This document shows positions 15,221 through 60,169 of a stretch of 64,000 nt of DNA, piece after piece; the first letter of the stretch is position 1, and every line of letters starts with the position of its first letter. This DNA comes from Selaginella tamariscina (Eukaryota; Streptophyta; Lycopodiopsida; Selaginellales; Selaginellaceae). The stretch is taken from NCBI GenBank assembly GCA_003024785.1, contig PUQB01000628.1, positions 62,001-126,000 on the forward strand, read 5' to 3'. The notes under the pieces are model-generated. The model did not search any database. It saw only the letters and a program-made list of their open reading frames with translations, and was not told the origin of the DNA. A program made the position numbers and the translations under genes.

Positions 15221-15225
15221 CAGAT

Positions 15226-15310
15226 GCACATTGTAATTAAAATGGGCATGATACATGAAAATGAGAATAAAAAATAAATTGCTAATTAATACTTAATACT
15301 TAACGTGCAT
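15226..15310. repeat. Second copy of the left terminal sequence of the 14.8-kb transposon
   Basis: About 80 bp starting ATGCACATTGTAATTAAAAT match the first 80 bp of the 38.8-53.6 kb element at roughly 80-85%, including TGGGCATGATAC and the following CTAATTAATACTTAA. It ends with AACGTGCAT, which could be a short inverted end, so this may be a small non-autonomous element or an isolated terminus. Confidence 0.6.
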
Positions 15311-33136: not shown

Positions 33137-34803
33137 ATGGTGTTCTTAGTGATGCTCTTCATTATTCTCTCACAACAATACTTTGGTATGTATTTCATAG
33201 AGAAAGATTGGTAAATCTCCCGCCAGGTCCATTTAACTGGCCGATAATAGGAAGTCTGCATAGAGTTGGTCCTCTCCCACACGTGTCTCTTCACGAACTC
33301 TCGAGAAAGTACGGATCCATCTTCTACATGAAGCTAGGAACAGTTCCATACGTAATATTAAACTCCGCCGAAGTAATCAAGGAAGCATATGCGAGATACC
33401 CTGTGGAGATGGCCGATAAGTTGCCTACTATCGCAGGGGAGGTGTGTGGGATGAACTACAGTGGTTTGATCCTTGCAAGACACTCGCCTTCCTCGATTCT
33501 ACTAAGGAAACTCTTAAACATGCATATGTTGTCTGCTTCAAGGCTTAAGGCGTATGAGGATGTTCGAAAGCAGGAGCTCATGGTTGTTGTTAACAACATT
33601 TACCAGCGTACAAGACAGGGAGTTTCTATCCAGGTTGGTTTATACACTTGCACAGAGAGAGAGAGAGAGAGAGATGGATGATAATGGATATGTTTTGTAG
33701 GTGAGACCATTGTTACACTCGATGAACATGAACGTGGTGACGTATATGTTATTTGGTGAACGATTCTTTGGTTCGAGCATTTCACAAGGAGTAAACACGG
33801 AGTTTGTGAGTATATTCACTCAGGCTTTGCATCTGATTAAGGCACCAAAATCAGCGAGTACATCCCTCAACTCAGGTAACAACACTCTAATATACGTATT
33901 AGTAATAATAATAACATTAACTCTTGATTCTACAAGGTGGCTTGATCTTAATGGGGTCGAGAAGAAGTACAGAGAGTTCATGCCGCAGATGAAGAAAGTC
34001 CTCGGTTCGATTTTGGAGAAGCGGAAACGTATTCTATTTGAAAGCAAGAACAGTGAACCTGCGACCTTCGTAGACATATTAATTTCCAGGGAGGATGTAG
34101 AGATGCCTGGTCTGTCCAAACTGGCATTGATCTTTGTAAGTCTCTCTCTAGAGTGATATAGTTGAAGTATAATATATTGATATATACAGGACTTAATAAT
34201 AGCAACTGTGGATAGCACTGCGACGGCGCTTGAATGGAACCTAGCAGAGCTTGTTTCACACAGGGACATACTAGAGAGATGCCAGGAGGAAATACAACGA
34301 GTTGTTGGTACAGAAAGATGGATCGAAGAAGCGGACCTCCCAAGTTGAAGTTCCTGGACGCAGTGGTGAAAGAGAATCTGAGGCTACATATTCCAGGTCC
34401 GCTTCCGATTCCAAGAATATTCGAAACGCAAGTGGAGATCGGAGGGTACACAATTCCCGCCGGAACTGCAGTTCTTCCAAACTTTTATGCAGCTGGTATG
34501 GATGAAAAACAATGGGAAAAACCCTTCGAGTTTGTTCCTGAGAGGTTTATGGAGAGTAAGATCGATGTGTTTGGAGCTGACTACAATATGCTTCCATTTG
34601 GGACTGGCAGAAGAGTGTGCCCCGGTGCAAAATTTGCATTTAACACACTGAAGATGAACATGGCTGTTCTGCTGCAGGGATTTGAGTGGGAATGCGGCAA
34701 AGTTAATATGGATGCTGTGTACAGTACAGTGAATCTCAGAGCTCAGCCTCTTGAAGTTCGAGCTAGTCCGAGAATGCATGCTGAATTCTATCATGCACCA
34801 TAA
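33137..34803 (+). CDS. Cytochrome P450, A-type plant family (frame broken, altered active-site motifs)
   Basis: Haem-thiolate monooxygenase of the plant A-type clan, normally ER-anchored. ATG at 33137 gives a hydrophobic anchor MVFLVMLFIILS. The proline hinge LPPGPFNWPIIGSLHRVG follows one frame over (break near 33185). Introns of 67 (33634-33700), 61 (33876-33936) and 54 nt (34136-34189) have correct borders. ENLRLH (ExxR), FVPERF and the haem loop LPFGTGRRVCPGAKFA with its Cys are intact. A second break near 34345 (CCAAGTTG) separates DLP from KLKFLDAVVKE. The C-helix WxxxR lacks its Trp (SSILLRKL), and the I-helix reads ATVDSTATALEW, so the usual A/GGxD/ETT is altered. Length fits a full P450 of about 490 residues. 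It is either a decaying gene or a diverged gene with assembly indels. Substrate unknown. Confidence 0.85.
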
Positions 34804-35583: not shown

Positions 35584-36990
35584 TCACCAGGGGCAGCAGG
35601 AGTTGAAGTGTACGGAGGTGGCTTCGGTGATGGTAATGGTGAAGGTCGAAGGTTCTTCAGTGGAGGAGAATGTGGTTTGGGGGATCTCCTTGGTGTAGGT
35701 GGAACTGCTACAGCTGGGCGATCTCTTAAATACCGGTGGTGATATCTTCAAAGGAGGAGATCTCTCTGGTGGTATCAGTGGTGATGGTGGGGATCTCTTT
35801 GAAGGAGGAGATCTCTCTGGCGGTACCGCTGGTGATGGTGGTGATGTCTTTGAAGGAGGAGATCTCTCTGGCGGTACCGCTGGTGATGGTGGTGATCTCT
35901 TTGAAGGAGGAGATCTCTCTGGCGGTGTGCTGGGATGGTGATCTCTTTGGCGGTACTGCTGGGAGGTTGGTGGTGATCTCTTTGAAGGAGGAGATCTCTC
36001 TGATGTACTTCTGGACATGGTGGTGATCTCTTCAGAGGAGGAGAAGGTATCGCTGAAGATGGTGGTGATCTCTTATAAGGAGGATGGTGGTGGTAGTGTT
36101 GGAGATCCCTTGGGTGCTCGAGTGATCTCTCTGGTGGTAGTGATGGTGGTGGCGGTTTCACACCTGGAGGTTTAACAACTGAACGTGGTGACGGGTGGTG
36201 TAGGCGGTATGACAATCTCATCTGGGGGAGGGAGTCGAGATTCAGGAGCAGGTTCTACATACAATGGTGGTGGTGGATAAATGGATTAAATGTGAGCTCC
36301 CAAGAGGGGGAGCAATCCCAAACCACGGAGACGGGCAAGGAAGATTGCCGGAGGTAGAGGCGGTATGATAGAACCGTCAACTGCTTCTTTTTCAGCGATG
36401 TGCATCTCGGTTTCTCAGGGCGAAATGCAAACGGACCGACTGAGTATATGAGCTCGTTTACACCTGAGCCTGCTCTTTCCGACAAGGGTGCACCAGACAG
36501 GCCGTTTCCAATGTTGGGGTGGTATCCGATCGGGGCTTCTTATAATTCTTACCAGCACTTCTTCCCAGCGTGATGTGCATGGTAGCTCCTTTGATTGTTA
36601 GCTTGAAAACCCCGTTCTTGTTTGATTATCCCAGAGACAAGCGGGTGCTTCTCTGCCGTGCACTCTAAACTCACTTCGGCCCCTATAGCATTCAAACACT
36701 TCAGTATCTATACATTATATTGGAACTAAGATTGAATATACGAATTAAAATTCTTCAGTTTTTTGATTTGTAATGCTTTTTAGTGGGTTTAGTGCAGGTT
36801 TGTACTGGTAAGGCGTAGTGAGTTGATTCTCGAGTGACCCTTGAAAGCATTTATCACAGAAGACTATGCCAGTAACGGTGATAGTCGCTCTGGTGTCACC
36901 TTGGAGACACAGATAAAGTGGAGAATGAAGAGGAACAAGATTTATGAAGGTCATTGTCTCCATGGAGCACCATAGCAAGAAGAAGAAAAT
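35584..36990 (-). CDS. Pollen Ole e 1/extensin-like protein with proline-rich C-terminus (frame broken)
   Basis: Secreted cell-wall type protein. Minus-strand exon 36990-36827 has a hydrophobic SIIFFFLLWCS followed by ITVTGIVFCDKCFQGSL, the Cys-x-x-Cys start of Ole e 1-like domains. After an intron of roughly 130 nt, 36693 onward reads GAEVSLECTAEKHPLVSG. A frame change leads to VFKLTIKG, and another to YHPNIGNGLSGAPL and LIYSVGPFAFRPEKPRC, the usual domain end. Then come Pro-rich segments (YPPPPLYVEPAPESRLPPPD) and about five SPPSKRSPPSPAVPPER-like repeats (35650-36010). At least four single-base frame changes occur, several in homopolymers, yet each segment stays family-like. No ATG lies in frame before the hydrophobic region except inside it, so the true start is uncertain. 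Confidence 0.7.
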
Positions 36991-38798: not shown

Positions 38799-38825
38799 AT
38801 GCACGTTGTAACTAAAGTGGGCATG
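38799..38825 (+). repeat. Left terminal inverted repeat
   Basis: Begins ATGCACGTTGTAACTAAAGT and ends TGGGCATG. It pairs with 53532-53558, with mismatches at positions 6 and 19 only. Confidence 0.85.
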
Positions 38826-39078
38826 ATACGTGAAAATGGGAATATAAAATAAATTACTAATTAATACTTAAGTTTTAATTATTAATTAATCATTTAATTA
38901 ATATGTAATTAAGCCTTAAATATTAATTAATTAATTAATTAATCCTTCAATAACCTTACTTAGTAAGGAATATTCCTAAAATATCTTAGAATATTCATAT
39001 TATTCTAAAAATAGTTTACAATAATGAAGAAATACTATCAAACATAATTACAAATGAAATCATTTTCTTATCAACATG

Positions 39079-40255
39079 TTAATTTTTTATAAATACTTTC
39101 TTTCTATCATACAAAGAAATCTTCATTTTGTCTAAATCATCACTCTCCGGATTAATCAAATCATTTTGGTCAATATCTTGATGTTGTTGCCACCACTTAA
39201 CACTCTCACGAATGCAATTGGGAGTTGCCATCCTTGTTAATACATAAGATGTGATAAGAGAAGGTCTGCATAAAGGCTCATCTAAAAACTGACGTTCCTT
39301 AAGAATAATATTATAAAGCGCCCGGTTGCTATCCTTCATTTTATAAAATTCAATATCACGAGAAAGAAAAGCTTCAGGAAATGTATGATACGGTGGATAC
39401 TGCTCACAAAAATTTTCGAGATTCTTCTTTCTGAGGCACGTATCCAAGTAGTTCACTAGCTCATCCATGATATCGGTATCAGAATATGGATCGAAAGTGA
39501 TTGGATGAATACAAGCAATGTTTTGGTTGAGCATAGCCTTCTGAGGAGAGTCGTCTACTACTAAGATATGTGCATTCTTCATTATCCTTAAGCGACTGAT
39601 CTCCCCATGAGTCCCAATTATTCTTTCATTCTTGAAGAAGTATGGCTTGCTTTCCTTTCTTATATTGTGAAATTCGAGAGGTTTATAACATATTCGCTGG
39701 TCAAAAATCCAATCTTTACGAATCACCTCTTCTGCAACACTACAATGTTTCTTAAGTAAATTCAACAGCGGTGTTAAGTTATGAATCTGCATGCATGACC
39801 AAATCCCCACAAGCGCACCCATCTCCTTAAGCTTTTGAAAGAGACGATCCAACCCTGGACGAAAAATAATATCATATCGAAATTTACCATGACAAGGAAT
39901 GAAATCTCCTTGTTTGATTTCTTTTTTCTATCCTCGGGCCTTTGTCGATGAAGCAGAACACCATTGACATCCAACAACACAATATGGCCATGAGTAACAT
40001 GAGATAGCGTTGCCTCTTGAATACTTTGCAAATCACTTGTTTGCTCCCTTTCACATTTATCCGTTGCCACTATCTCGTTGCCTATCCCTTCATCATTTAA
40101 TTGTACATCATCCTTACAAGATTCAGATATTGCATGCGCTGAAGAAATTGATTTCGGAACTGAAGCCAATAAAAATGATGAAAAACTGAAGTGGCCCCCA
40201 TGGTAACGATGTTTTGAGCTGCATTATTATCCATTTCCTGCATGAACTCTGTCAT
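39079..40255 (-). CDS. HAD-superfamily, FCP1/TIM50-like phosphatase-fold protein (possibly inactive)
   Basis: Minus-strand protein with the FCP1/NIF-type HAD fold. ATG at 40255 (MTEFMQEMDNNAAQ) is the likely start. A frame change near 40185 (TTTTT) leads to SVPKSISSAHAISESCKDD. HIVLLDVNGVLLH at about 39970 is the nucleophile motif. The usual DxDxT/V reads DVNGV, so the second Asp is Asn and acid catalysis is probably lost. After a frame change in a run of six A near 39925 come FRPGLDRLFQKLKEMGALVG and IWSCM. At 39540 ILVVDDSPQKAM is the third HAD motif. The C-terminal part (YPPYHTFPEAFLSRDIEFYK) has no known motif; stop at 39079. The gene lies inside the TIR element, tail to its left end, and may be captured cargo. 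Role unknown. Confidence 0.75.
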
Positions 40256-40534
40256 TCTGACATGTGGCACAAGAAATTGTCGCCAAACCCCTCTCTTACC
40301 TCATGCAATGCTGAAAATCCATGTTCTCAATTATTTCATTACATCTGCAAAATGATAATTAGCTGACCTTAAAATTATCAAGGTATATTATTTACCTTGT
40401 TAATGTGTGACCCATGTTTGAACTAAAAGCTTCATTAATCCTTGAGAATTTATTTTCTGTACAAATATAAAAGAAATATACAAAAATGCCTTATGTTACA
40501 CTCATTTACAACTATTCATCACTCTATCAATTCA
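40256..40534. other. Short gap between two leftward genes
   Basis: No independent gene seen. It presumably holds the 3' end of the ParB/methylase transcript and the 5' part of the HAD gene. Confidence 0.4.
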
Positions 40535-43500
40535 TTACAATTCTTCTTCGCTATTACCTTCTGAGTGAGGCGAAGAAGGTCTAAGCCGCTTGTGAGATGG
40601 TTCAAGATCTTCTGCATCTTCTATTGATGTTTCCATGGGTCCTGGAGTGTGCGAATGTTCTGTACTCCTCGAGATAACTTCCGGTCTAATATCTGATTGA
40701 AGTTCGTTCTCAGACTCCGAGATTGAACCAGATTCACCTTCAGAGCTATCGCACTTATCTGGAGGGAACTTTCTCAAATACGCCTTTATGGATTCGTTGG
40801 GGTACTCAGTTGAGACCCAATCTATCCACTTGTTCAGGTCCTCAACCATGGTCTTATCCTTTCAACGGCAAACACACATGTATGCCGAAGGTAACACTCC
40901 TTCAAGACGGACCCCCTAGTGCAGTAGTCAAAAACCCACGCATCACTGTGAGGACCCCTGATCAAGTTGACGATGCTCCGTGCCGCTTGACTTGTAATGT
41001 TTGGATAACGTACATTGCCGAATACGTCACTCATACCTATCGGTGTATCGGATGGAGGTTCAGGGCCGTTGGAGTGCAAACAGATGCCTGGCCAGTCATT
41101 TGGAAGCTTGAAATTGTTTGGCGCATTCCTAACAACCAAGTGAACAACGTATCAATGCACTTGGGATTAGCATCGTTCATATAAAATCCTGTCCAACGAT
41201 GTCTATTCTTCTTGGCGAAGGCGAAGGCAAAAGTATCGGTGACATGAGCAAGAATCAAGAAATAAATACCTGAAAAAGTAGGTATCAGTGAAGAGCGCAA
41301 GCATGAATTCAATAATAAATACCTTCTATGTATATGCTTGCACGGCTAAGTTTCTCCACCAGATCCTCTAGTGCCCTATCTGTCGAAAGATTTTTTGACA
41401 CCCGCCGATCCATCACGAACAATTGAAACGGTTTCCTACAAGCAGTGATGTTACCCCATAAAGTCTCCGAATCTAACAACAAACATCTGTAGGGCTTGTC
41501 GTGATTCGTAGCATCCTCCTTTATAAGGTTCAATTCGGTTCTCCGCTGCTGAAGGACTGCCATAAGAGAAGGCGTCATCCCAATGTTCTCCTTTTTGGCG
41601 TTGGCGTGCAATAGATTCTTGCCTAGATCTTCCGATTGGTTCACCCATTCGACAAGCATATCATCGTTCGTCACATGCAAATATTTGCTGACCTCTTCAT
41701 ATGTTGAAGTCGAGGTCCAACCCAGTTTGTGGCAGTGTATTCCCAACCACTCCTTGAAATGCCTGACCGTCTTCAACTCCATTGCCTTGAGATGAAAAGG
41801 AGAGGTTGGGCTGCTGTTATTAATTTGTAGTTTGCCATCGATCACCAAATCAGCCAAGACTTCCATCTCCTCCATCGTTGTTCCATTTAAAGGCTTCAAC
41901 CATGTGAGCTTGAAATCGTTGTCTACATCCTTTGTAGATTGAACAGACTTAGCCTTCGGCGTCTTACTGGGTTTCTTTGCAGACTTTTCTGAGGGCTCCC
42001 TTCACTTGTCTGCTTCTTCTTCAGTGTTCCTTTTGAAAAGGATTCCATAATCCCCAACCATTTGGCAAAGATCCTATCTTCGGGGCAAGAAATCAACATC
42101 ATCAGAAAGGATGTTTCCTTCCCGCCCACCTGGGCAAAATCAACTGCTGCAATTTCTTCAACTCTCTGAGGAAAAAGACAGATTAATATACCGGCGAGAT
42201 AAATCCCGCCCAAACAATTTGCTTACCCGGTATTCCGCAGATTGTGTATTCCCTGCGGTAGCTCTTTGTGGTCGCTGAAGAGATTCCCACACGGCTCGCG
42301 TGTGTTTAAACTTCTCCCATATTTTGCTGTTGTAGTGGTTGGTGTCGGCAGCGTCCCATTCCGCCGATAACTTATGGTACTGCTCGATTGTGAGATTCGG
42401 CTTAGCTAAAAACGCCGATCTTTTTGTCAGCTTCTCACGGGTATGCTCGGAAAGTTTTGTTGCCATCGTTCCTTTGTTGTGTTCATCGAGAAGTCGTTGG
42501 GCTGCCGTTATTGTGTGCTGGCCACTAATGATGTAGTACTTGATAGATTTTTATTCTCCGTCTGAATCTTCATGAGTTGTTCTGGTGTTGTGATCCAGAC
42601 TTTGTCAGCGCCCTTCCTTCTTTCATAGTATGGACACAAAACAGCATTATGTGGAACGGTATAAGAATTGTCGTCCTTCATCTTCTCCATGAGCTCAGCT
42701 ACACGTTCCTGGTTGAGTGGCCTGTAATTGAAGTTTGGGTTGACGCTGCAATATTTAACCCTACAAGGATAAATCTTATCATCCAACATCATTTCCTTGT
42801 GACTTATTGCAGCATGAGATGCCACAGGTGCAGCTGACAAAACGATTGATGATTTTCTTTTGCGATCCGAATCAACATGTGTGATCCCCGACTGCAGCTG
42901 TTCTAGTGTTCTCGGCACACTCTTCCAGCTCCCGAAGCTTCCTAAGCAAATTGAACGTGATCTGTAGAGAACCTGAGACCGAGCCACCCTCTCAATCCCT
43001 TATGATGTCGCTGTGTTCTTCTTCAATGTGAAGAGGGAAGATTGCTCCACTTGCTGATTTTCTGTATTGTGAAGCAATATCTCCTGACAATACACCTACT
43101 CGATGAGTCTGAAGATCTTCGAAGTAGACATCCAGATGGATCCCCTCCATAGATGGGCTTTCGTTGAGTTGAAGAAGAACTCCAAGGTCAACATCATTAG
43201 TGAACACGTGAACGTCATTATCCACAAGTCGACAAAACCACCCGAATTAATGTTGTAACTGACGACCTCTGGATCCGAGAACGTGACATTGGATGGAACA
43301 AGGCATATCTGTCGAGCATCGTCCAATCTGGGTTCGCAGCCTGCTTTCGGGTGCTTGACTAGCGAATCTACTTTCCATTGTTTTGCTTGTCCATGAGATG
43401 TGACAGAGGTTAATTTGACAGCAACCATGGTTGCTCCAATGCGCTTCCCATTTATCTTAAAATATGGCCAAGTTGATTCCAGAATCCCCCTGCCCATCTC

Positions 43501-43663
43501 TTCTCCTGCTCTTGTCTTTAATGTCACCTCAATTCCACATCTGAATACAAAAATGATTAGTTCAAGTATCCGAGTATAACAGATTTTATTTTAATTCTTA
43601 CCCAGAATTTGACGACGACTCCATACTAATGACTCGATCTCCTTGTTTGATCAAATCGTCCTT
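40535..43663 (-). CDS. ParB-like domain fused to amino-methyltransferase-like domain, transposon-encoded (frame broken)
   Basis: Exon 43663-43602 (LIKQGDRVIS...) and introns 43541-43601 (61 nt), 42166-42226 (61) and 41270-41322 (53) are bounded by GT-AG in frame. The first part (GRGILESTWPYFKINGKRIG ... KQWKVDSLVKHP) resembles the small domain at the start of En/Spm-type transposase proteins. Next, YCSVNPNFNYRPLNQERVAE followed by YYIISGQHTITAAQRLL is a ParB/Srx-type nucleotide-binding fold. After a helical linker, FLILAHVTDTFAFAFAKKN and AARSIVNLIRGPHSDAWVFD, then TRGSVLKECYLRHTCVFAVE, follow the order of beta-class N4/N6 DNA methylases (motif V, then X, then I with G-x-S and acidic end of strand 2). 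The expected DPPY/DPPW reads MDRRVS near 41405, so catalysis may be lost or an indel masks it. The C-terminus is acidic and Ser-rich. About five frame changes. ParB-methylase fusions are known from phages and bacterial mobile elements. Confidence 0.6.
42193..42213. repeat. Single copy of the array palindrome inside an intron
   Basis: CGGCGAGATAAATCCCGCC lies in the middle of the 61-nt intron 42166-42226. It is the same variant as the array copy near 45393. Confidence 0.8.
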
Positions 43664-43768
43664 CTGCAAAATAATACACTATGAATACAAATATATAAAA
43701 ACGCACACACACTTGTATAAACCCGAATATACAAAAATAATACACAGAGAGAAGTAGACGTAATTAAC

Positions 43769-43850
43769 TGTCCGAAGCTCACATTTGTGTTAGTGCAAAA
43801 GAAAGATAACATTTCGTTTTAGAACCACCACAAATGTGAGCTCTGGACAG
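43769..43850. repeat. Imperfect inverted repeat / hairpin
   Basis: CTGTCCGAAGCTCACATTTG at 43769 is the inverted copy of CAAATGTGAGCTCTGGACAG ending 43850. The 22-bp arms have two mismatches and a 38-nt loop. It sits just upstream of the ParB/methylase exon and before array 1. It could fold in RNA or be a tiny MITE. Confidence 0.75.
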
Positions 43851-43959
43851 TTTTACATAGATTCCTAGCTTTTACTCGAAATATTATGATAAGATGATAA
43901 AAGTAAATAAAATGAGATATGCAACTTATATATACTAATACACATATATATTCACATGG

Positions 43960-45670
43960 AAGGTGCGGCGGGATTAATCTCGCCACCCTTTCTGGAGGCC
44001 TTGAACGGGAGTGCGGAATTAATCTTGCCACCCTTCTCGGTCTCAGAGAGAACTGGGCAGGATTTATTTCTCACACCCCTTCAGTGACTCCAGAAAGGAG
44101 GCGGGATTAATCTCGCCCACCATGTAAGGATGGTTAAATGAATTTCCCCACCCTTCCCATTCTCTCCATTGGTATGTTGTAAACCTTCTACGTCTCAGAC
44201 AGAAACGTTTGGGATTGGTCCGACTCACCAATGGAGAAAAAAGGAAGGGTGGCGGGATTCATTCCTCCAACAGGCATTGAAGACTCGGCGGGATTAATCC
44301 CGCCGCCCAGGGCCTTCACTCGGTCCCTATGCGGCGGGATTAATCCCGCCGGACGCCAATTCCCTGCGCGAATCGGGCGGGATTAATCCCGCCGCCTAGG
44401 CACTTCAGACAGGCCAATGGCGGCGGGATTAAATCCCCCGATTCCGCGCAGGGCATTGCGTCGCGGCGGGATTAATCCCGCCTCCCAGGCCCTTCACTCG
44501 GGCCTTAGTCGGCGGGATTAATCCCGCCGAACGCCAATGCCCTGTGCGAAATCTTGCGGGATTAATTCCCGCCGCCTAGGCCTTCAGGCAGGCAATGGCG
44601 CGGGATTAATCCCGCCCGATTCCGCGCAGGGCATGCGTACGCGGCGGGTTAATCCCGCCGCCCAGGCCCTTCACTTCGGTCGTAGGCGGCGGGATTAATC
44701 CGCTGGACGCCACCTTTCTCGTTCTCAGAGAGAATTGGGCAGGATTTATTTCTCACACCCCTTCAGGGGCTCCGAAAAGGCGGCGGGATTAATCCCGCCC
44801 ACCATGTAAGGGATGGTGAAATTAATCCCACCACCCTTCTCAGTTCCCTCCATTGGTATTTTGTAAACCTTCTCTGTCTCAGACAGAGTTAGTCGGGATT
44901 GATTCAACATACCAATGGAGGAAAAAAAGAAGGGTGGCAGGATTAATCCCGCCACCGGGCAATGAAGGTTCGAAGAGATTAATCCCGCCGCCCTTTCGTA
45001 AATCATGCACTCACACATATATATTGGCTGCGGCATTTTGAACAGGGATGGGTGGGGGCGGGATTAATCCCGCCGCTTATATCCTGCAGAAGTGCCTGAG
45101 CGGCGGGATTAATCCCGCCGCCCTCCGCGAAGGGCATGAGCGTGGGGCGGGATTAATCCCGCCGTTCATGTCCTGCGTGAATTCCCTGAGCGGCGGGATT
45201 AATCCCGCCGCCTTACGCGCAGGACATGTCATGTAGGCTCTTCGGTTAGCCTTCCGTGCAGGATCTTTCATGCAGGCTCTTCGGTTAGCCTCATGAGCGG
45301 CGGGATTAATCCTGCCGCCCATCCCTGTAAATGCCCTGCGCGGAATCCGCCGGGATTAATCCCGCCCATTAGGGCCTTCACACAGGCCATTGCCGGCGAG
45401 ATAAATCCCGCCGCATTCTGCGCAGGGCATTGGGCGGCGGGATTAATCCCGCCACCGAGGCCCTCACGCAGGCCATGCGGCGAAATTAATCCCGCCGCTC
45501 TTCGGTTTGTCCTAGAGCGGCGGGATTAATCCCGCCGCCCATAGCCTGCGTGAAGGGCCTCGGCGGCGGGATTAATCCCGCCGCCATGGCCCCAACCATA
45601 TAGCGGCAGGATTAATCCCGCCGCCGAGGCCATAAACCTATAGCGGCGGGATTAATCCCGCCGCTCGAGG
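43960..45670. repeat. Palindrome array 1: ~30 copies of GGCGGGATTAATCCCGCC
   Basis: About 30 copies, some degenerate, of an 18-20-bp perfect palindrome occur every 40-50 bp. In 44286-44700 four monomers of about 44 bp form a higher-order unit of about 177 bp that repeats at 44286, 44463 and 44640, recognisable by spacer text (CCCAGG.CCTTCACTC, ACGCCAAT.CCCTG, CCTAGG.CTTCAG, ATTCCGCGCAGGGCAT). The flanking blocks 44029-44285 and 44711-44970 are a direct duplication of about 257 bp. From 45056 spacers diversify (GCCCTGCGCG, CACGCAGGCC). Each copy could form a hairpin in single strands. The array lies between the ParB/methylase coding exon and a possible 5' leader exon. Confidence 0.9.
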
Positions 45671-45751
45671 GGCTTAGCGTGTGTGCGAGAGATAAAATTA
45701 ATAAATAAAAAAATTATACAGATAAAACACACACATATATATATGTGTGTG

Positions 45752-45796
<45 letters not shown>

Positions 45797-46787
45797 ATAG
45801 GAGTGTACGTGTGTGTGCAAGAGATAGATAAATAAATAAAATTATACAGTACTGGTACACATAATATATGTGTGTACATAGGTATATATATGTGTGTATA
45901 TGTATATCGTGTGTATGCGTGTGAGCGAAACAAATAAAATCATACAGATAAACAAACACACACACACATATGTATACACAGGAGTGTGCGTGTGTGTGCG
46001 AAAGATAAAACTAATAAATAAATAAAATTATACAGATAAACACACACATATATATGTGTGTATATAGATATATAACCATAGAGAAAGAGAGAGAGTCTGT
46101 GAATATATAAGCATATATATAAACTAGTGTTGTATACTATTTGTTAATATGCATTGATTATATATATATATATATGTAAAGCAGTGTGCGTGTGTGTGGG
46201 AGAGATAGATCAATAAAAAAAATTATAGATACTGGTACACATAATATATGTATGTATATATGTATATAGTATATATTATGTGTATATGTATATTGTGTGT
46301 ATGCGTGTGTGAGCAAACAAATAAAATGACAGATAAACAAATACACACACACACATATATTATACACAGGAGTGTGCGTGTGTGTGCGAGAGATAAAACT
46401 AATAAATAAATAAAATTATACAGATAAACACACACATATATATGTGTGTATATAGATATATAACCCATATGAATATATAAGCATATATATAAACTAGTGT
46501 TGTATACTATTTGTTATATGCATTGATTAATATATTATATATATGTAAAGCAGTGTGCGTGTGTGTAAATTATAGATACTAGTACACAAATATATGTATG
46601 TATATATGTATATAGGTATATATATATATGTGTATATGTATATCGTGTGTATGCGTGTGTGAGCGAAACAAATAAAATCATACAGATAAACAAACACACA
46701 CCCACACACACTTATATACACAGGAGTGTGCGTGTGTGTGCGAGAGATAATCAATAAATAAAATTATACGCACACTCCTATACATAT

Positions 46788-46820
<33 letters not shown>

Positions 46821-47610
46821 GATCTCACCTGTGTGCACCGCCGCTGCCGCCGCCTTTGAAACCCTAAGAATATACCTAAACCCTAAAGGAATTAAATATA
46901 TATATTAACCCTAATAGAATATTCCTTCTGAGAATATACTTAAACCCTAAAAAGAATAAAATATAGATTCGCCCTAAACGAATATTCTTTCATTATATTA
47001 TTAGCGCTGCGTGTGCGTGGGTGTATCACATACACCCCAAAAATATAAATCATGCAGGGATTTAACATGTGTGTGTCCATGAGAGTGTTAAAGTTTCATG
47101 TGTATCAATACATACATACACATTGCATATATTAATACACATAATATATACATACACACGTGTATACACACAGACATACATACATATTACATGGGTTTAG
47201 GGTTTTGGATTTAGGATGGATCATGCATGGTGTGTATGTATGAGAGAAGAGAGAGTGTTGAAAAATTATTTTTGTACACATTGCATATATTAGTACACAT
47301 ATATACTTACACATATTATACACAGATATACATATATATATGAGAGAAGAGAGACAGTACATATTATGGATCATGCATGGTGTGTATTATACACACAGAC
47401 ATACATACATATTAGTACATAATATTAGAGAGACCGAGTACATATTATAGATCATGCATGGTGTGTATGTTTGAGAGAAGAGAGACAGTACATATTAACA
47501 TGGATCATGCATGGTGTGTATGTATGAGAGAAGAGAGAAAGTACACATATATATACATACACACGTGTATACACACAGACATACATACATATTACATGAG
47601 TAAATTCATT
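45671..47610. repeat. Microsatellite-rich tandem repeats (TG/TA/CA and ~390-bp units)
   Basis: No gene supported apart from a possible leader exon. About 45800-46170, 46190-46545 and 46550-46770 are related ~380-390-bp units made of TG/TA runs plus GTGTGCGTGTGTGTGCGAGA and AAATAAAATTATACAGATAA. From 47150 to 47660 another tandem family repeats GGATCATGCATGGTGTG with GAGAGAAGAGAGA about five times. ORFs here are low-complexity artefacts. Confidence 0.8.
46819..46990 (-). promoter_or_regulatory. Possible 5' leader exon of the ParB/methylase gene
   Basis: On the minus strand a GC-rich stretch (GGCGGCGGCAGCGGCGG) ends in CACACAG followed by GTGAGA, a good donor. It is preceded by TTAGGGTTT telo-box motifs, common near plant transcription starts. 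With the acceptor TTTTGCAG at 43664, the intron would be about 3.2 kb and contain array 1. No transcript evidence is available. Confidence 0.35.
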
Positions 47611-47745
47611 GTGTTACATATTAGGGTTTAGGGTTTAGGGTTTAGGATGGATCATGCATGGTGTGAAGAGAGAGTGTTGAAAAATTATTTTTGTACACAC
47701 ATGTATACACAGGGTTTAGGGTTTAGGGTTTAGGGTTTGCTCCCA
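47611..47745. repeat. Interstitial plant telomere-type repeats
   Basis: TTTAGGG units run in tandem at 47622-47645 (3-4 units) and 47706-47738 (4 units), with single or double units near 47190. Too short and internal to be a chromosome end. Confidence 0.85.
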
Positions 47746-47929
47746 ACAAGCTTAATATAAATATTACACATGTAAATTCAATGTGTTACATACACACAGA
47801 TTGAGTACATATATCATACATGCGTTGAACATGATGTTTTCAATAAAGAAGCAACATATTTCTTCAGTTTGGTTTAGGGTTGTGTGCATATGTGTTTTTG
47901 TAAGTTCTTGTAATGCGTGTGTAAATTTA

Positions 47930-48740
47930 TGATTGTGTTTATATATGTGTGCAAAACAAACATCGAATAATTAAGAAAATAATATTAATAAACACACTAT
48001 GAACATATTTTAAATTATATATAATAATATATGATTTTATCTAATATATAGCCATATATAGTTTTAATAATATATATTAATTTAATATTGATAAAAAGGT
48101 TTAACATTGAAATATTCTTGAAATAATAAGAAATTAATTGAGAAAATCCCATTAATATATACAAATGTAAATTAAGTACTCAAATAATTAACTAAATTAA
48201 TTATCATAATCATGTTTAATATTGGAATATTCTTGGAATAATAAGAAAATAATAAAGAATATCCCATTAATATAAAGAAGATTAATTACTCAAGTAATTA
48301 AGGAAATGATATTAATATACACACTATGAACATATTTTAAATTATACATAATAATACATCATTTTATCTAATATATAGTCAATATAGTTTTATAATATAT
48401 TAATTTAATATTGATAATAAGGTTTAACACATGAATATTCTTGAAATAATAACAAATTAATTGAGAAAATCCCATTAATATATACAAATGTAGAATAATT
48501 ACTGCAATAATTAAGAACAAACTAATTTAATTATGATAATCAGGTTTAATATTAGAATATTCTTCAAATATTAATAAAATAATAAAGAATATCCCATTGA
48601 TACTAGGAAATGAAAACTAAATACTCGAGTAATTAAGAAAATAATAATAATAAACAGACTATGAATATATTTTAAATGATACATAATAATATATCAATTT
48701 ATTTATTGTATAAGTATATATTTATATATATATATATAAA
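47930..48740. repeat. AT-rich tandem repeat, ~330-bp unit
   Basis: At least two units, starting near 47985 and 48315, share AACACACTATGAACATATTT, TTTTATCTAATATATAG, GGTTTAACA and AATATTCTTGAAATAATAA; a partial third begins near 48650. The same family occurs in inverted orientation at 59800-60160. Confidence 0.8.
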
Positions 48741-48959
48741 TATACTTGAATACTAAGAATGTAGAATATAGTCTAAAATTTCGTAATATTAAACAGCTTG
48801 AATCACTTGAATAACATTAAATGCAATTTTAAAATACTCATTGGAACTGGAGAGTATATATGTCAGAGTGTCGGATATTTGTGTCAACTCATCTTTATTT
48901 TCTGTTCTTTTTAAAAAATTTGAATTTCTGACATATGTATTGTCGGTCTGACATGTAAA

Positions 48960-49145
48960 TTTGAAAATGCATTTAATTTCCCACTCAAATTCAGATCTGG
49001 TTCTTTCTCCGGCAAGGGTTTCTTCATTTCTGTATTTTTCACTCTTTAGATCTTCTTTTTTCTTCATAGTGATCATCTCAGGAGCGAGATTAAATTGGGT
49101 GCTATTCTTTATAGGAAAGCACGGCGCCTTCAGTGCTGTTTACAA
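48960..49145 (+). promoter_or_regulatory. Possible 5' leader exon of the DUF7869-like gene
   Basis: A less AT-rich segment with pyrimidine tracts ends TTTACAA followed by GTAAGT, a strong donor at 49147. The acceptor TATGTGCAG at 49932 would close an intron of about 790 nt that contains array 2. No coding role is required. Confidence 0.4.
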
Positions 49146-49312
49146 GTAAGTATTATAAACAAATTTAAAAATACTTATAAAGATTCACTCTCTTACATTC
49201 TCTCTTAAAATTACAATTTAGGGGTTTAGGAATGCATTAGGATTATAATATATTCCGTTAGGGATTTATCCCGTTTAAATATCCTTTTAACTTAATATTC
49301 TAGGTTAACCGG

Positions 49313-49785
49313 GGCGGCGGGATTAATCCGGCCATTTCTTTTTCGCCTCTTCGAAGAGGTGGCGGGATTAATCCCGCCACCATCTCTCGGGCAATGCTTC
49401 TCCGCCACTGAAAAAGAGTGGCGGGATTAATCCCGCCGATAACCTTCTCAACTGATGAAGAGTTACCAGAATTTATTAGAAAGAGTTGTCGGCGGGATTA
49501 ATCCCGCCAACCATTTTAGGAGGCAGGGAAGGGGTGGCGGGATTAATCTCGCCACCACTCCCTGTTTTAAGGATTTGGGGACAGGATTTATCCCGAGATC
49601 TCTTTGAAATCATAGTTTTGGAGAGAGTTATGTGCGGGTTTAATCCCGCCACCCATTCCCCGTCGTAAGAATTGTGGGCGGGATTAATCCCGCCGACTCT
49701 CTCCGAAGGGGTTGAGTCGGCGGCGGGATTAATCCCGCCGACCGTTCCTCGTCGGAGGGATTCGTGGGCGGGATTAATCCCGCCC
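49313..49785. repeat. Palindrome array 2: ~10 copies of the same palindrome
   Basis: Ten copies, eight of them close to GGCGGGATTAATCCCGCC, are spaced 43-70 bp apart. The spacers (for example TTCTTTTTCGCCTCTTCGAA) are unlike those of array 1, so only the palindrome is shared. The array ends about 150 bp before the first coding ATG of the rightward gene. Confidence 0.9.
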
Positions 49786-49938
49786 ATCAGTTGTATTAAT
49801 CAAACATGAGATATTATCTCTAAACATAATTATGTATTATTGCATATGCATATTATTAAGTAACCGTAATTCAGATTTCTTAGAAATATTGCATAAACAG
49901 ATATCATAAATAATACAATTATTTATGTGCAGGACAAT

Positions 49939-52900
49939 ATGTTTAATACTGGAGATAAAGTATGTCTTCTTCGGAACAACGAGATAGTTGGCACTGGAAC
50001 TGTGGAAGTTCGAGATAATAATGCATCATGTCACAATATTGCCCAAGGATCTTGTGTGTACGTATGGGTGAACACCATTTACAAGCATGTTGAGGTTCTG
50101 GGAATGGAATTTGAGGAGGGTTCTCCTGTATTGTGGAATTTGGATGAAGTCAAGGCTGACACAGAATATGCAGAGTCACAAACAAATAGTAGCACGAGTT
50201 TACCAGATGATGGCTTGCCTGCTGTGATGGATGAGGTGATTCTCTTTCTTCGTGAGATTGAAGTCGGAAGAGGCATCATCACAGCTATAAATCCAATGGA
50301 AGCAGTGTCAGAAGAGAAACTAGGGTCCGACTTCGTGGGTGTAGTTGTGACAGAGGTTTCACCTAATGGCACATTGTATCCTGGATCCCTCGTGAGGTGG
50401 CGAACATCTGAATTAAGACGGCAAGATGGTTCAACATATTCTGGGTTGGATTTCAATAATAACAACCCGGAAGAACAACTCATATTTGAAGAGGTTCCTT
50501 GCATTGGTCCTATTGTAAGAAAAAGGCGATTCATGGGTTGTAGATCTTCCCCTGCAAGTTTCAGCAAGAGGGTAAAGATGGATCCTACATCTTCCGAAAG
50601 TGTTACGAGCATTTCCACGATTGACTGTTGCAAGAAGAAGTGTTGTCAGATGGCAGACCGGAATGAAATTACCCAATGTAGACATGTCTTTCGTATGCTC
50701 ACCCAAAAGCAAAGGCATGAGTTTGTATATGCTGCACTAACTGGGTGTATTGATGGAATGGCCTCGGACACAGGTTATCAGAGTACATCCATGGTATTTA
50801 ATAAGGTGGCCATCTGCTTCAAAGCTTGGTACAGTATATACGGGATCCCAAAGACCACGTTCTACCGTCGGAGGGATGAGTGGCTAGATGGAGCGCGAAC
50901 CTCAGTTCATGGGAACACTCGCTTGGTCAAAACCCGCTCTCACATCATGGCAGCCATAGAGATACTCAAGGCTTTTGTGGAAGCAAATGCAGACAGGATG
51001 CCTCACAAATGCCGAACCACAAATGCAGGGGTCAGGGAAAATCTCAAGGTTTTGCCTTCAATCTACACTCAATTGAAGCTGTGTGAACATGTGAACAAGT
51101 GCCTCAGTTTGATGGGGCTCCAAGCAATCTGCACTGGTACCTTCAACAACATATGGAATACTCATTTTAAGGATGTGGAGATTGCAAAACACTCTAGCTT
51201 TTCCAAGTGTGACACTTGTACATCATTGAAGGCTGCAGAGGCTTGTGCAAAAACCTTGGTGGAGATCACTACCATTCAAAGAAGATGGAGGCCCACATGA
51301 TTGCACAACAAACTTGCCGGTCTCAGTACTATGCACACCGCATGCTTTCTGTGTCACGCCCATCAGAGTACCTGTGCTTGATCCATGACAAGATGGATCA
51401 TTCAAAGACCAGCATTCCAAAGCTCTTTGCAACACCAAAGTGCCTTGGAAATGTCATGAAACTTCCGATTTCATTGACAGGTGTGCTAACACATGGACAC
51501 GGTTGTGAGTCATATGGACACTTTTCACTTCCACATTGGTCTAGCGACTCCAATTTCACTATTGGGTCGTTAGCCATGTGTTTCAGAAACCTTGAAGCCC
51601 ACTCACAGACAAGTCCTATCAGTGATCTCAAAGTGAAGAAACAACACCTTCAACCTTTACATAATGCTCTCATGAACAATCTGCACTTGAGGCTACTTGG
51701 GAATATGAGAGGCATTGTCAACAGCCTGCACAGAAAACAGATGGCCCTGTTGAGAGTTCTGGTTCAGTGGAGGGATCTAGCTCAAATAGTGTACATGTGT
51801 CCTCAACATCAAATAAGCTTCCTCGTCATTTGCTTTTACAGATGGATAATTGTGCAGGCGAGAACAAAAATAGGTAAATCATTTTACTTAAGGGTTTCTC
51901 AAGCTCATACTTACTTTTATTTTCTAGATATGTGCTAGCATACTTGTCAATGCTTGTTGCCAAAGGTGTGTTTGAAACAATCACGCTCAGTTTCCTTATG
52001 GTTGGTCACACTCATGAAGATATTGATGCGTTCTTCAGCAAGGTCTCCAACTCTACAAAAAGGACAAGTGCACTTACCTTACCGCATATGATGAATCTTT
52101 TTGAAAATTGCATCTCCAAAAAAAGTTGTGCTTTGCTTGTGACTGAGGTGCCAGACTTCAAAAAATTTCTCAAGGAGTATATAAAAGAAGGGAGTGATTC
52201 TTTAGTTGGTCACCTTGTGCCGCTACAATTCTTTTTCTCCATACGAGATGGTATACCTATTATGCAGTACAAGTTACGGCCATCAGAGCAGGAGTGGTTA
52301 CCGAAAGAGGGCTTAATGCTCTTCAAAAGTGGAGAGGATGGAAAGCCACTTCTCCCAGAAGGACAACCAGACCCTATTCCATTGAGTGCCCAGCTCAAGG
52401 AACAAGAGGTTATTATTGATGGCATCAAAAAATATGTGGCATGGGTTCAAAAATCGATGCCAAAGAATTCTGATAAGGCAACTGGTTACTCAGAACTATA
52501 TAAGCATGTGGTCGACTATTGGGAGACTGTTGTTCGAGAGTTGGAAGGGCCTACTGTCACAAGTACAGAATTGCAACACCCTTTTGGCCTAAAACAAGGT
52601 GGCGAGAGGAGATTGAAATGACATCACTGAGCATAGACGACATAGAAGCCAGTAGTGATGTGGAAGTGCAAACCCCACACTTTGTTGGACAAAGGAACCA
52701 AAAACCTAAAGCATACTTTGATTGTGCAAGGATCTTCAAAAACTAATGATGGTTCTCATTACTCCAGATGCGTCATATAATCAGCCTATTTGGATGGGTC
52801 AAATTATCGACACACCTGAAGTAATCACAAAAAATAGTATTGTTAAGGTTGCATGGTTCAAACCACAAAAAAGGCGACACGAGAAGGAGAGCGAAAGATA

Positions 52901-53054
52901 TAATGGATGCCTAGAGAAAACATGGTCTCCCAATCAAAAAGACCCAGCATGTTTTATAAATGTTAAATCCATTCGATATGGGTGGATGTCAAGAAGCGTT
53001 GATAAAGTCACGATTAACAAAACTGCAAGGGAATGTATGTTTTCTGAAGCTTAA
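49939..53054 (+). CDS. Transposase-type protein (DUF7869-like), probable mobilising enzyme of the TIR element (frame broken)
   Basis: ATG at 49939 follows an acceptor at 49932. Residues 1-150 hold two copies of a small beta-domain (TGDKVCLLRNNEIVGTGTV; DEVILFLREIEVGRGIITA) resembling the N-terminal domain of En/Spm-type proteins. Then come a Cys-rich linker, a helical region with IPKTTFYRRRDEWLDG, and a zinc-like SKCDTCTSLKAA. After a frame change near 51270: HDKMDHSKTSIPKLF, GHGCESYGHFSLPHW, then QMDNCAGENKNR. A 54-nt intron (51874-51927) follows, then FLMVGHTHEDIDAFFSKVS. The D...DN.GENKN...GHT(H)EDID pattern is that of DUF7869, thought to be an RNase H-like transposase core. Further frame changes near 52600 and 52740 lead to a C-terminal block with PIWMGQIIDTPE. 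The breaks would prevent a full protein unless they are assembly errors. Confidence 0.7.
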
Positions 53055-53531
53055 AGCAATTACAAAATTATAAAATATCATATATTTAATATTCATAATT
53101 ATTATAAACTCTTTAATAATAGTACCAAATTGTATACTTAACTATATAAATTTAAAAAATGATATGGAAGATTGACTATATTATTATAGGATTTTTATAT
53201 ATATTATTACTACTACAAATTTTTAATTAATAATGTTATATTTAAATATTAATATTTTAATAACAACATCAATATTTATATAATGTACCTCTTATGCTCT
53301 TCCTTAATTGTTATATTAGGCAATATATTATATAATTTAATACCTTCTACTTTTATAATGTTATTAATTTTTGTTCAATGAATGCTATAATTTATTAAAG
53401 GGTAGAATACAAAATAGAATATTCTAAAGATATTCTTTTTTCAAACATATATTTTAAAGAATATTCCTTTAATATTAGAAAATGCTAATTAAATAGTTAA
53501 AATTGCTAATTATTAGAAAAGGGACTATAGC
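53055..53531. other. AT-rich subterminal region of the TIR element
   Basis: No gene. It contains GAATATTC-type motifs also seen at the left end (38960-39010). Confidence 0.5.
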
Positions 53532-53558
53532 CATGCCCATTTTAGTTACAACTTGCAT
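53532..53558 (-). repeat. Right terminal inverted repeat
   Basis: The inverse of the left terminus; on the minus strand it begins ATGCAAGTTGTAACTAAAAT. Confidence 0.85.
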
Positions 53559-53669
53559 ATTAGGCTGATGTAGAACCTGGGTCCGGAATCTGTCCCGTGT
53601 CCGCCACCCAAACCAAATCCTTTGGCAGATTTGGAGCCCTTGCAAACCGCAACTCAGCCGTTACATAAT

Positions 53670-55160
53670 TTAGCGAAGGAGAGAAGTCGTGCACCAGCAC
53701 TGCAATGCATCTTCTACCTCGCCCAACCTTGTCGTGAGGAACTTCACCAACTCCGTCTCCTCATGAAACCCCGGGGCAATTAGGGGAACCTCCCCAATCC
53801 CCTCCTTGCGTGTCACAAGCAGTTCACACGTCCCATCCTCCTTTGTCCTCCACGGGTAGCATCGTTTCGAGGCTGGTTGCACTTGCACCTCGACATGCTT
53901 CTCTAATGGTCCATCATCTGCCACTACCCTCTTTGTCCCACATGTCCATGCTCCGAGCTTAGGTGCCACACTCTTACGAGCATATGGTTGCACTTTGACT
54001 TTCTTCTTCTTCTTGGTCCACTGCTTACGATTGGGCTGGATTGGTAGTGATGACGGGACTTCCTCTCCTTCCGATTGTTGCTCCATCTCGGTCTCCAATC
54101 CGGCGAAGGGGTTGCTGGTGGCCACACTCTTTCGCGGAGTTGCTTGGGGAGTTGTTCGAGCCTTCTTCGGGGTTTGCCATCCGTCGCTCTGCTCATCACC
54201 TTGCTCTACTCTCGCCTCTTCTCCCTGCTTCAGCTTCTTTGCCGCCAGTCGCTTGCACTGGTCTAGCATGTGCCCCTGCATCTTGCAGAACCTGCATGCC
54301 CCAACTCCGCCCTTGAGGACCAATCCTACGCGTACCCGATCAAACCACATAACTGCAGGATATGTCCTATAGCTCAGAACACACATCTGCACTGGCCCTT
54401 CCACCCCATGAGGCGGTTGGGAGACGACATACTCTGTCGCTCCGAGATCCACGGCTAGACGCGTCATTAGTTCCTCACTATCACAAAATAGGGATGGTAG
54501 GCCCCACACCTCCAACTCCCTGTCCTCGCTGGCTACTAGCAGGTCATCCTTATCCTCCACTGAAAACAAAGGTGCCCACTTTAGGAGTCGCGCCCTAAAT
54601 TGGCCCATCCTCAACGTTTTACGGTCCAGCAACTCCTACAGTCCATCAGCGTCCTTCAGCATGGCTTCAAAGCATCCTCGGCCGAGGTTTCGAATACGAG
54701 TCACTGAGTGTTGCTGCACTGGATCTCCTAGCGCTGCATCCAGTCACGAGTTTCTCTTGTCGGTGGATAACAACCCATGAACAGCACCATGAAGCGGTTT
54801 CCCTGAGCCTCCATCCAGTGTTGATTCTTCATCAGTTCCTCCTCCTCATCGGACAGGCCAAAATGCAACTCCAGCTCTCCATCAGCGTTTTCGACCTCTT
54901 TCGAGTACTTAGGGCGTACTCCTAGTTGCACTCGAATCACCCTCTCCCGAGGGACACAGCTGCCTTCAGCGTTTCACTGCCGTTGTTTGCCCAGGCATTT
55001 GTAGGTCTCGTCTTCACCGGTTTTGGAGGGATTATCTCCTCTGCACGTACCTCTGTCAGAGTTGGAACTACCAGACTTGGCCCTGCACGCTAATCACAAT
55101 CAGCCATGACAGAGGATTGAGGTGGTGAGGAGCTCATCTGCTTCGATTGCATCGAAGGCG
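53670..55160 (-). mobile_element. LINE-type ORF1 (gag-like, CCHC zinc knuckle)
   Basis: From a possible ATG at about 55153 (MQSKQMSSSPPQSSVMADCD) the minus strand reads a leader with NAWANNGSETLKAAVSLGR, then VIRVQLGVRPKYSKEVENAD and GNRFMVLFMGCYPPTRETRD. After a break near 54700 comes LLDRKTLRMGQFRARLLKWA, then a single zinc knuckle CRFCKMQGHMLDQC. A basic linker and a C-terminal part end at 53670. The order (DUF4283-like RNA-binding domain, then CCHC) is that of plant L1-type ORF1. No endonuclease or reverse transcriptase ORF follows before the TIR element at 53558, so ORF2 is missing from this copy. Base composition is clearly GC-richer than the surroundings. Confidence 0.65.
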
Positions 55161-55229
55161 GTTGCCAAGGTACGATCGCATTATGATTCCCCCTTGTGGG
55201 GAGAGCACTTTGCACTACTCAGCCCATGC

Positions 55230-56357
55230 TCAATTCTCCGCTTCCTGTTTCCGCAGAAAGGTCGCAATGTTGTACGCTCTCCGTGCGTCATCAACCTCAT
55301 CCGACAAGCTCCACACATACGCAGTCGGGAGCTGCGGGGGTTTCTTGTTGGTCCATCGAACTTCACAGACACCCGGCTCCGTTTCTTGGGTCAAAAAGCT
55401 ACCCTTGGTCCAGCCAAACCTATCTTCGGCCATACGTTGCAGTGCTACTGCCGGAGTTTCCTTCTCTCCACAAGCAATGCGGGCAAGAACCCACTGTCCG
55501 TCTTCCAACCGTTCCATGAGAATGCGCTGGGATCCTACAGCAACCAGCACCACCTTTATCGGGGTTGAGGTTCGCACCTCCTCCTGCATCGTTCTCTGAA
55601 ACGTTGAAGAGTGATCCCTCGAGCGCAATGCACAAACCCACTCCTCCAGCTCTCCAGGGACTTTGGGAAGTGTTTCCCGCACCACCACACCCTCATCCAC
55701 CGGTGCTTGTTCCACACTTCCGCTCTTGGCAGCCGCTGCCAAAGCAACGGCCTAGTTGGAGAGAGCATCCGCCCTCACATTCTCCTCCCGAGGTATATAA
55801 ACCATCTCAAAGTGCTCAAACTGCTTGTGCAATACTTGGAGAGACGGCTTCTTCACCCCCACCTGTCCACAAACTTGTTTAGCCATCAAGTCCGAGTCGC
55901 AGAAGGCCCGCACCGATTGAGCTCCAACTTCCTTTGCTGCACACAGTCCGATTGTGAGTCCCAATATTCTGCTTCGTTGTTGGTTGCACGCATAAGTGGC
56001 TGTAACACTTCTTGGACAACCTTCTCGTTCAGCATTGACAGGACCGCACCAGCCCCTGCCACTCCCTTGGGGTTCTCCTTTGCTGCACCATCAGAGTGTA
56101 GAATCATCCATCCTTCGCCCCCGTCCTCACTCACGGCCCGCTCACTGTCCAAACCGTCCTCACTCTTCCTTGACCCGTATGTGCCATCTGAGCTTGAACG
56201 CACTCGATCACTGTTGTCCGTCCCCGACTGATGAGCCGAGCCTTGGTTCACCAAAACACATGCTCCGTCATTGCCGAGTCCTCGTCTCCGCCCATCTCCT
56301 TCGACTGGTTCGATAATCCCTCCCTGATCTGCCGAATACGCCTCGTCTCCACCATCG
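55230..56357 (-). CDS. RNase H domain protein with Nudix-like region, retroelement-derived
   Basis: From ATG at 56357 (MVETRRIRQIREGLS), after a frame change near 56250, the minus strand reads MILHSDGAAKENPKGVAGAG, ATNNEAEYW, then after a break in a GGG run GLCAAKEVGAQSVRAFCDSD and PREENVRADALSN. The D...E...D...D set of type I RNase H is complete. Downstream, VPGELEEWVCALRSRDHSS is followed by VVLVAVGSQRILMERLEDG and GEKETPAVALQRMAEDRFGW, which has the shape of a Nudix box but lacks the REVxEE glutamates. The stop is at 55230, only about 75 bp before the LINE-type ORF1 start. In LINEs, RNase H is normally at the end of ORF2, so this order is unusual. GC-rich, like ORF1, suggesting one origin. 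Confidence 0.6.
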
Positions 56358-57060
56358 AATCAAGATCCTCACGCTCCTCCAACCCTGCTCTCGTTCTATC
56401 TACTTTGCTATGCTCTACTCTGTCCTAATTCTTACGTTGAACCCTAATTTCTGGCTTGCCCTACACACCTCGATCCCTTCGATTCTACACCATCCCCACC
56501 GAATTGCTTGAAATCCATCATGCCCACTTGCAATTCCAATCCTCGCCTACCCCTTTCAACCTCAAACTCCCACACCCATATCCATTTCGCTCCCTGCCTT
56601 TGCCCTACGTCCTGTACACAGGTCCACCTACCTCCCCCCTACACCTAAATGCTGCTATCTACTGTATTCACCGCCACCCCCAGCTCTTACGGATGCATCT
56701 GCTACTGCCTCAGCCGAGACAAATCAGCCCAAGCAAGAAACCTTGCAAGAGACCTCACAAAGCACATGGCGCCAGTGTGGCGCCATGGCGGCACCCCCCG
56801 TGGAGACCTCCCACAGCCCGAATCGATTGACTCCACTCCAAGCTATCAAAGAGCAGGCTCTTATATATAATATTATATACTGTTGTTCCGCTTCCCTTCT
56901 GGGTGGTTCTTTCTCTATCTATAAACGCACATTTATTTATATACATATATTCACATTGCAGGCTGTTGGGGATGCATTTAATCAAGGATTTTACAAACAA
57001 CAAGCATACTTGAGAGGAATTCAAAAATACTGGGGATAATTACTCGCAAAGACCTACTGC
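56358..57060. other. GC-rich stretch, then an exon-like segment
   Basis: 56370-56860 shares the GC-rich character of the retroelement and may be its 5' leader; overlapping ORFs on the plus strand lack motifs. At 56962, after an acceptor CACATTGCAG, a plus-strand frame reads AVGDAFNQGFYKQQAYLRGI then a stop. This is exon-like but unidentified. Confidence 0.3.
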
Positions 57061-60165: not shown

Positions 60166-60169
60166 TTTA

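Follow-up and report, generated by a model that had tools for sequence, protein, structure and literature searches.

The element and its genes in the window

The window analysed here, a 64,000-nucleotide stretch of the Selaginella tamariscina genome, holds an element bounded by terminal inverted repeats (TIRs). Within it a HAD gene and a gene with ParB-like and methylase-like motifs (the ParB-region gene) point leftward, a transposase gene points rightward, and two arrays of a short palindrome lie between them (Table 1). The 27-bp inverted ends, reported at exactly these coordinates in the first-pass annotation, match each other at 25 of 27 bases, and a 26-base end pattern (up to three mismatches) was matched three times in the window as opposed to never in 100 shuffles. 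The third match, at 15225, lies within a remnant of a left end, which confirms the earlier observation that the left terminus recurs near 15226; blastn of the rest of the window (E ≤ 1e-6) revealed no further piece of the element. The three large genes and two repeat arrays of the first-pass annotation are all present, though each gene frame is broken in this copy. Its description of coding sequence right up to both ends holds for the two sides but not for the middle (about 43.6 to 49.9 kb), which consists of non-coding arrays and AT-rich DNA.

Table 1. Features of the element and its remnant in the window.
Feature	Positions	Strand	Remarks
Solo left-end remnant	15224..15296	+	73 bp, outside the element; blastn
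Whole element	38799..53558	.	14,760 bp; TIR-bounded; 10/10 fetched copies align end to end
Left TIR, 27 bp	38799..38825	+	ATGCACGTTGTAACTAAAGTGGGCATG; left-type end runs on as ATACGTGAAAATGGG
HAD gene, NIF/FCP-SCP-like phosphatase domain	39079..40223	-	PF03031; frame broken in window copy
ParB-region/methylase-like gene, at least 3 exons	40535..43590	-	Frames, GT..AG introns; broken in window copy
Palindrome variant in intron of ParB-region gene	42191..42210	.	Sequence
Left palindrome array	43950..45690	.	23 sites (≤2 mismatches), mostly 40-46 bp apart; upstream of leftward genes
AT-rich non-coding middle with simple repeats	45691..49300	.	Composition
Right palindrome array	about 49300..49800	.	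9 sites at ≤2 mismatches; upstream of transposase gene
Transposase exon 1, MFNTGD...ENKN(R)	49939..51873	+	Frames; broken in window copy, open over the stretch in E3
Transposase intron, 54 bp, GT..AG	51874..51927	+	Inferred from frames
Transposase exon 2, with VGHTHEDID	51928..52621	+	PF25273, E 4.3e-27
Right TIR, 27 bp	53532..53558	-	ATGCAAGTTGTAACTAAAATGGGCATG, inverted partner of left; right-type end runs on as GCTATAGTCCC

The surroundings of the element include a host cytochrome P450 gene (33100-34803; PF00067 matches its first frame, 33100-33681), a host protein kinase fragment (24521-24976) and low-complexity frames with ERSPPSKRSPP-type repeats (35584-36254, minus strand). Immediately beyond the right end, minus-strand frames at 53670-56359 look by eye like an old retroelement, as they include a CCHC knuckle and a stretch similar to RNase H; they have no Pfam match at 0.01. 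The segment at 60147-60339 is a dispersed repeat with 86% identity to the right flank of another copy of the element (E5), and was rejected as an empty site for E5 because the left flank does not carry on there.

Copies of the element in the host genome

The host assembly comprises 1391 contigs with a total of 300.7 Mb, and we searched it for the ends of the element. Allowing up to two mismatches, we counted 4674 (2383 + 2291) occurrences of the 21-base TIR core and none of the reversed control. Patterns extended into the sub-end, at up to three mismatches, gave 1943 left-type and 2077 right-type ends (controls, 0), and the copy number of the element is therefore up to about 2000. The first 100 perfect ends listed include 27 convergent neighbour pairs less than 60 kb apart, 21 of which are spaced 10-16 kb, with a median of 14.4 kb. 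From this paired share (42 of the first 100 listed ends) we estimate about 1000 near-full-length copies. If all ends represented full copies (about 2000 x 14.4 kb), the element would account for roughly a tenth of the assembly; counting only the paired share it would account for about 5%. The exact TIR pattern was absent from prokaryote contigs. Another 13 neighbour pairs less than 60 kb apart among the same 100 ends face outward, and four of these (L013/L014 on C1, and pairs on C25, C27 and C79) are 13.1-15.3 kb apart, near the element's own length.

For ten pairs of facing ends with a spacing of 12-16 kb, the whole copy (E1-E10) was fetched and aligned to the window element. The alignments of all ten run from 38799 (38795 for E1, 38803 for E3) to 53558-53566, leaving the array region, which varies, and some intervening stretches unaligned. 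E2 and E4 contain a gap of 2500 Ns, which in E2 removes most of the ParB-region gene. Ten further facing end pairs were probed with 500-bp pieces at the expected offsets: the HAD and transposase genes were found in all ten and the ParB-region gene in nine, the exception being a shorter copy of 10.1 kb. A search of the host genome by gene gave at least 138 scored matches to the HAD gene among 6167 candidates. Of the listed HAD matches, 39 share a contig with a listed transposase match; for 16 of them, one being the window copy, the distance to such a match is 11-17 kb, and 15 of these 16 listed pairs are divergent as in the window. A search for multiple copies had been proposed as a check of the transposon reading, and the ends recur by the thousand, with the genes between them in the copies sampled, rather than occurring once each or apart from the genes.

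Among the window copy, E3, E5, E7, E8 and E10, identity over the gene sides is 98-99.9%, which points to recent, and apparently very high, activity. The left half of E4 is near the E1/E6 subfamily (0.990, 0.994) and its right half is closest to E9 (0.987), so that E4 may be a mosaic produced by recombination or by chimeric assembly. Perfect ends about 250 bp apart were seen twice (C1:2394829 and 2395084; C80:563737 and 563986); together with the nesting of E4 in the array of another copy, these close-set ends suggest that existing copies and their vicinity may attract further insertions.

Target-site duplications and an empty site

An exact 4-bp target-site duplication (TSD) flanks 10 of 22 end pairs (ATGT, TAAT, ATTA, TCTT, ACTT, GTAG, TAGA, CGTT, CTAT and ATAA), compared with 0.48 expected from cross-pairing of the same flanks. 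Three more pairs (E1, E5 and L065) match over 4 bp, as judged by eye, if a 1-bp indel is allowed, and nine, including the window copy (ATAC/ATTA), have no TSD even then. These counts are exclusive of the facing pair L014/L015, whose ends are 26 kb apart and whose flanks (TTTA/ATAA) have no 4 bp in common. E4 sits in the right array of another copy, and its flanks, when joined minus one TAAT, are continuous with the array region of the window, which represents a paralogous empty site. Of the constant TSD and empty sites that the first-pass annotation had proposed to look for, a 4-bp duplication was found in 10 of the 22 pairs, along with one empty site. Recombination between near-identical copies, or their chimeric assembly, may be behind the copies that lack a TSD. 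The copy number, the joint occurrence of ends and genes, the TSD and the empty site uphold the original designation of this locus as a TIR transposon.

The transposase gene

The assignment of the rightward gene to the DUF7869 type was borne out by the profile PF25273, which window exon 2 matches with 95.4 bits (cut-off 26). A 392-residue exon-2 frame is open in about 40 of the best 150 scored genome copies. We collected 73 DUF7869 homologues, the named ones of which are from a liverwort, molluscs, echinoderms, a coral, a hemichordate and Tubulanus. All 43 homologues that were aligned match PF25273, and in this alignment D482, D660, D700 and D702 do not vary, while E699 is kept in 93% (P0003 numbering). 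These acidic residues are as expected of a DDE/D-type transposase, and we infer such catalysis for the DUF7869 protein. No second Pfam family was matched by more than one of the 43, the single case being Transposase_23 at 6.6e-4. No PDB chain matches the transposase by sequence, viral contigs held no relative of the exon-2 query by tblastn, and the term DUF7869 was absent from the papers in the open-licence literature searched. The element, with its ends, 4-bp TSD and full copies, supplies a context for DUF7869 proteins, which are filed as function unknown.

The HAD and ParB-region genes

The HAD gene claimed in the first-pass annotation is supported by PF03031, which matches the window ORF at 4.1e-09 (36.8 bits; cut-off 21.8) and a composite of the copies at 1.1e-12 (48.4 bits; same cut-off). 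HAD phosphatases of the NIF/FCP-SCP type have the nucleophile motif DxDx(T/V). In the element this motif is altered to DVNGVL, DVNGV being found in the ORFs of the window copy, E2, E3, E8 and E10. A search for homologues of this gene returned none among 1038 candidates.

The ParB-region protein contains, by eye, a ParB-like box (IISGQHTITAAQ) and a stretch like methylase motif I (AWVFDYCTRGSVL). The labels ParB and methylase, which date from the first-pass annotation, are putative, as they follow from motifs read by eye and no profile confirmed them. The protein matched nothing in Pfam or NCBIfam; its best match in PHROGs (0.033) was to a family of unknown function, and PDB searches returned only unrelated chains at E ≥ 0.34. 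The ParB_N profile (PF02195) is matched nowhere in the genome, although matches to it turned up in 10 of 14 control genomes. No homologue was found at E ≤ 0.001 among the 7996 scored candidates sharing most words, and tblastn against phages and plasmids gave one weak phage match (E 0.9), annotated as a virion RNA polymerase. N4/N6 DNA methyltransferases have the catalytic motif [DNST]PP[YFW], which is absent from the joined ParB-region protein.

All three genes are under purifying selection. Summed over the 55 pairs of 11 copies, dN/dS was 0.47 for the HAD gene (344 codons), 0.31 for the ParB-region gene (728 codons, about seven of which were later assigned to an intron) and 0.32 for the transposase gene (837 codons). 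A codon was left out of a comparison when one of the two copies had a gap or stop there. The 55 comparisons are interdependent, and the presence of some dead copies among them should raise the ratio rather than lower it. Based on these values, the HAD and ParB-region genes were retained by selection while the element multiplied.

The palindrome arrays

The 18-bp palindrome GGCGGGATTAATCCCGCC is present 27,128 times in the assembly without mismatch, whereas its reversed control is absent. Among viral contigs it was found in one, at a single site. Two arrays are found in all nine copies that have no long N gap, the window copy among them, with 12-24 sites in the left and 9-18 in the right at up to two mismatches and a modal spacing of 45 bp. 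The intron with the palindrome variant is present in 10 of 11 copies, the other being E2, which has its N gap there. Over 412 sites at up to four mismatches in the 11 copies, positions of the core are 87-99% conserved and flanking positions at most 58%, a difference that is inflated by choosing the sites on similarity. Within arrays, spacers vary widely and the 18-bp cores are alike. Lying upstream of both gene units and in an intron, the palindromes are candidate sites for a protein of the element.

Between copies the two arrays behave differently. In the right array (five copies versus the window) we counted 5 substitutions in 804 palindrome positions and 82 in 1564 spacer positions, about 8-fold fewer in palindromes; in the left array (seven copies versus the window) the counts were 32 in 1569 and 79 in 3103, with no real difference. 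Only stretches alignable at ≥88% were counted, and related copies were pooled as if independent, so that the pooled test gives no probability.

The two arrays have observed/expected CpG ratios of 1.02 and 1.11; the ratio is 0.39 for the transposase gene and 0.75 for the left genes. CpG transitions in the gene regions are just 1.5-1.7 times as frequent as those at other C/G sites, and we therefore see no firm methylation signal in the sequence, the CpG content and the CpG transitions disagreeing in strength; neither was used as a proxy for methylation in our conclusions.

Nature of the element

Sola1 elements have a 4-bp TSD. According to the parts of its description available, the 21.5-kb Sola-1 element of Ectocarpus, Sola1-1_Ec32, carries a ParB-like and methylase gene opposite its transposase; Sola-1 makes up 0.17% of Ectocarpus, and green and red algal cases of such a gene are mentioned (PMC12477816). 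Because of its putative gene of this kind, the 4-bp TSD and the size, Sola1 is the likely home of the S. tamariscina element, which by published description is probably a giant transposon of Sola1 type. The first-pass annotation had taken it to fit no named superfamily, with a gene combination not known from any described plant transposon. In view of Sola1-1_Ec32 this is only partly right; we found no report of such a ParB-like/methylase gene in a land-plant transposon in the open-licence literature. On balance, we favour the reading that the locus is a DNA transposon, probably of the Sola1 group, with a DUF7869 DDE/D transposase, two selected genes, and palindromes predicted to be bound by a protein of the element.

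This reading has to be set against several others. The DUF7869 transposase might define a superfamily of its own, having gained a ParB-methylase-like gene independently of the algal cases, an idea with which the lack of any recurrent second Pfam family and the scatter of homologues over a liverwort and several animals agree. We think it rather unlikely, given the resemblance to Sola1-1_Ec32 in giant size and in a gene of this kind opposite the transposase, and the 4-bp TSD, although the available parts of its description do not state the TSD of that element. Segmental duplication or an assembly artefact in place of transposition would fit the end pairs lacking a TSD even with an indel allowed and the origin of the two halves of E4 from different subfamilies. 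Such an origin is highly improbable in view of the varied flanks, the frequency of 4-bp TSDs far above chance and the empty site; chimeric joins or recombination between copies would account for the exceptions only. The broken gene copies in the window and the altered HAD and methylase motifs could indicate that the HAD and ParB-region genes are captured passengers in the style of Pack-type elements, drifting with their carrier. Their dN/dS values across 11 copies and their presence in ten and nine, respectively, of the ten further copies probed make this improbable.

The palindromes themselves could be sites for a host factor, or passive tandem repeats that slippage and gene conversion keep homogeneous. 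Between copies, the left array has similar rates of divergence in spacers and palindromes, and the half-site GGCGGGA presumably resembles E2F-type sites. Against this, cores are alike within arrays where spacers differ widely, the palindromes of the right array have changed far less than its spacers, and the two-array layout is common to every copy free of a long N gap. We regard a host or passive origin as quite conceivable, if not what we expect.

In the favoured reading, the DUF7869 transposase is expected to bind the ATGCA[C/A]GTTGTAAC... ends and to duplicate 4 bp of target on insertion. A protein encoded by the element, with the ParB-region protein as the likeliest candidate, would bind the 18-bp palindromes in front of the two gene units and within one intron, and would mark the element's divergent promoters or relieve their repression. 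ParB loads on parS palindromes. A more specific, and doubtful, proposal is that the ParB-region protein loads on the GGCGGGATTAATCCCGCC arrays and holds these promoters open or chemically marked. If so, it would explain the burst to so many copies, and it would give the DNA address so far missing for the algal proteins: the ParB-methylase-like accessory proteins of algal transposons have been proposed to bind and mark their own DNA, with no target named in the available parts of that account (PMC12477816). The family described here offers a concrete candidate target, in the form of its many exact palindromes, alongside accessory genes under selection.

Comparison with known transposons

Several known types of element were considered and rejected. 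The target of piggyBac and Kolobok is TTAA, and none of the ten exact TSDs is TTAA. No polymerase or capsid gene was noticed among the frames, as opposed to a Polinton-like element. GingerRoot of Selaginella lepidophylla is likewise a DNA transposon of a lycophyte, but is described in the available text as having a 6-bp TSD and mostly TA..TA termini (PMC10045372), in contrast to 4 bp and ATGCA.. here; 6 bp were common to the flanks in 0 of 22 end pairs.

The transposase of VANDAL elements is of the MULE type. VANDALs with VANC share with the S. tamariscina element arrays of a motif upstream of genes and in introns, a motif number that varies among copies, and extra genes. The arrangement here would, by analogy, work like VANC and its tandem target motifs, although the element is no member of VANDAL: motif and transposase differ, and binding and demethylation have been shown for VANC, according to the portions of the report available (PMC5735166), whereas the palindromes are candidate targets by analogy.

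The Sola2 elements with Fanzor1 resemble the element in their 4-bp AT-rich TSDs, short TIRs and an accessory gene; as far as their description was available (PMC3627910), they differ in that the accessory gene is Fanzor1, that they occur in amoebozoa and that they belong to another Sola group, and the TSDs here also include GTAG and CGTT. The closest likeness is to Sola1-1_Ec32, set beside our element by the available parts of its description, which is also a giant DNA transposon with a large ParB-like/methylase-like gene on the strand opposite the transposase. The S. tamariscina element differs in its land-plant host, its length of 14.8 kb, its high copy number and the absence of a recognisable DPPY motif, and what is new relative to that description is the HAD/NIF gene together with the palindrome arrays.
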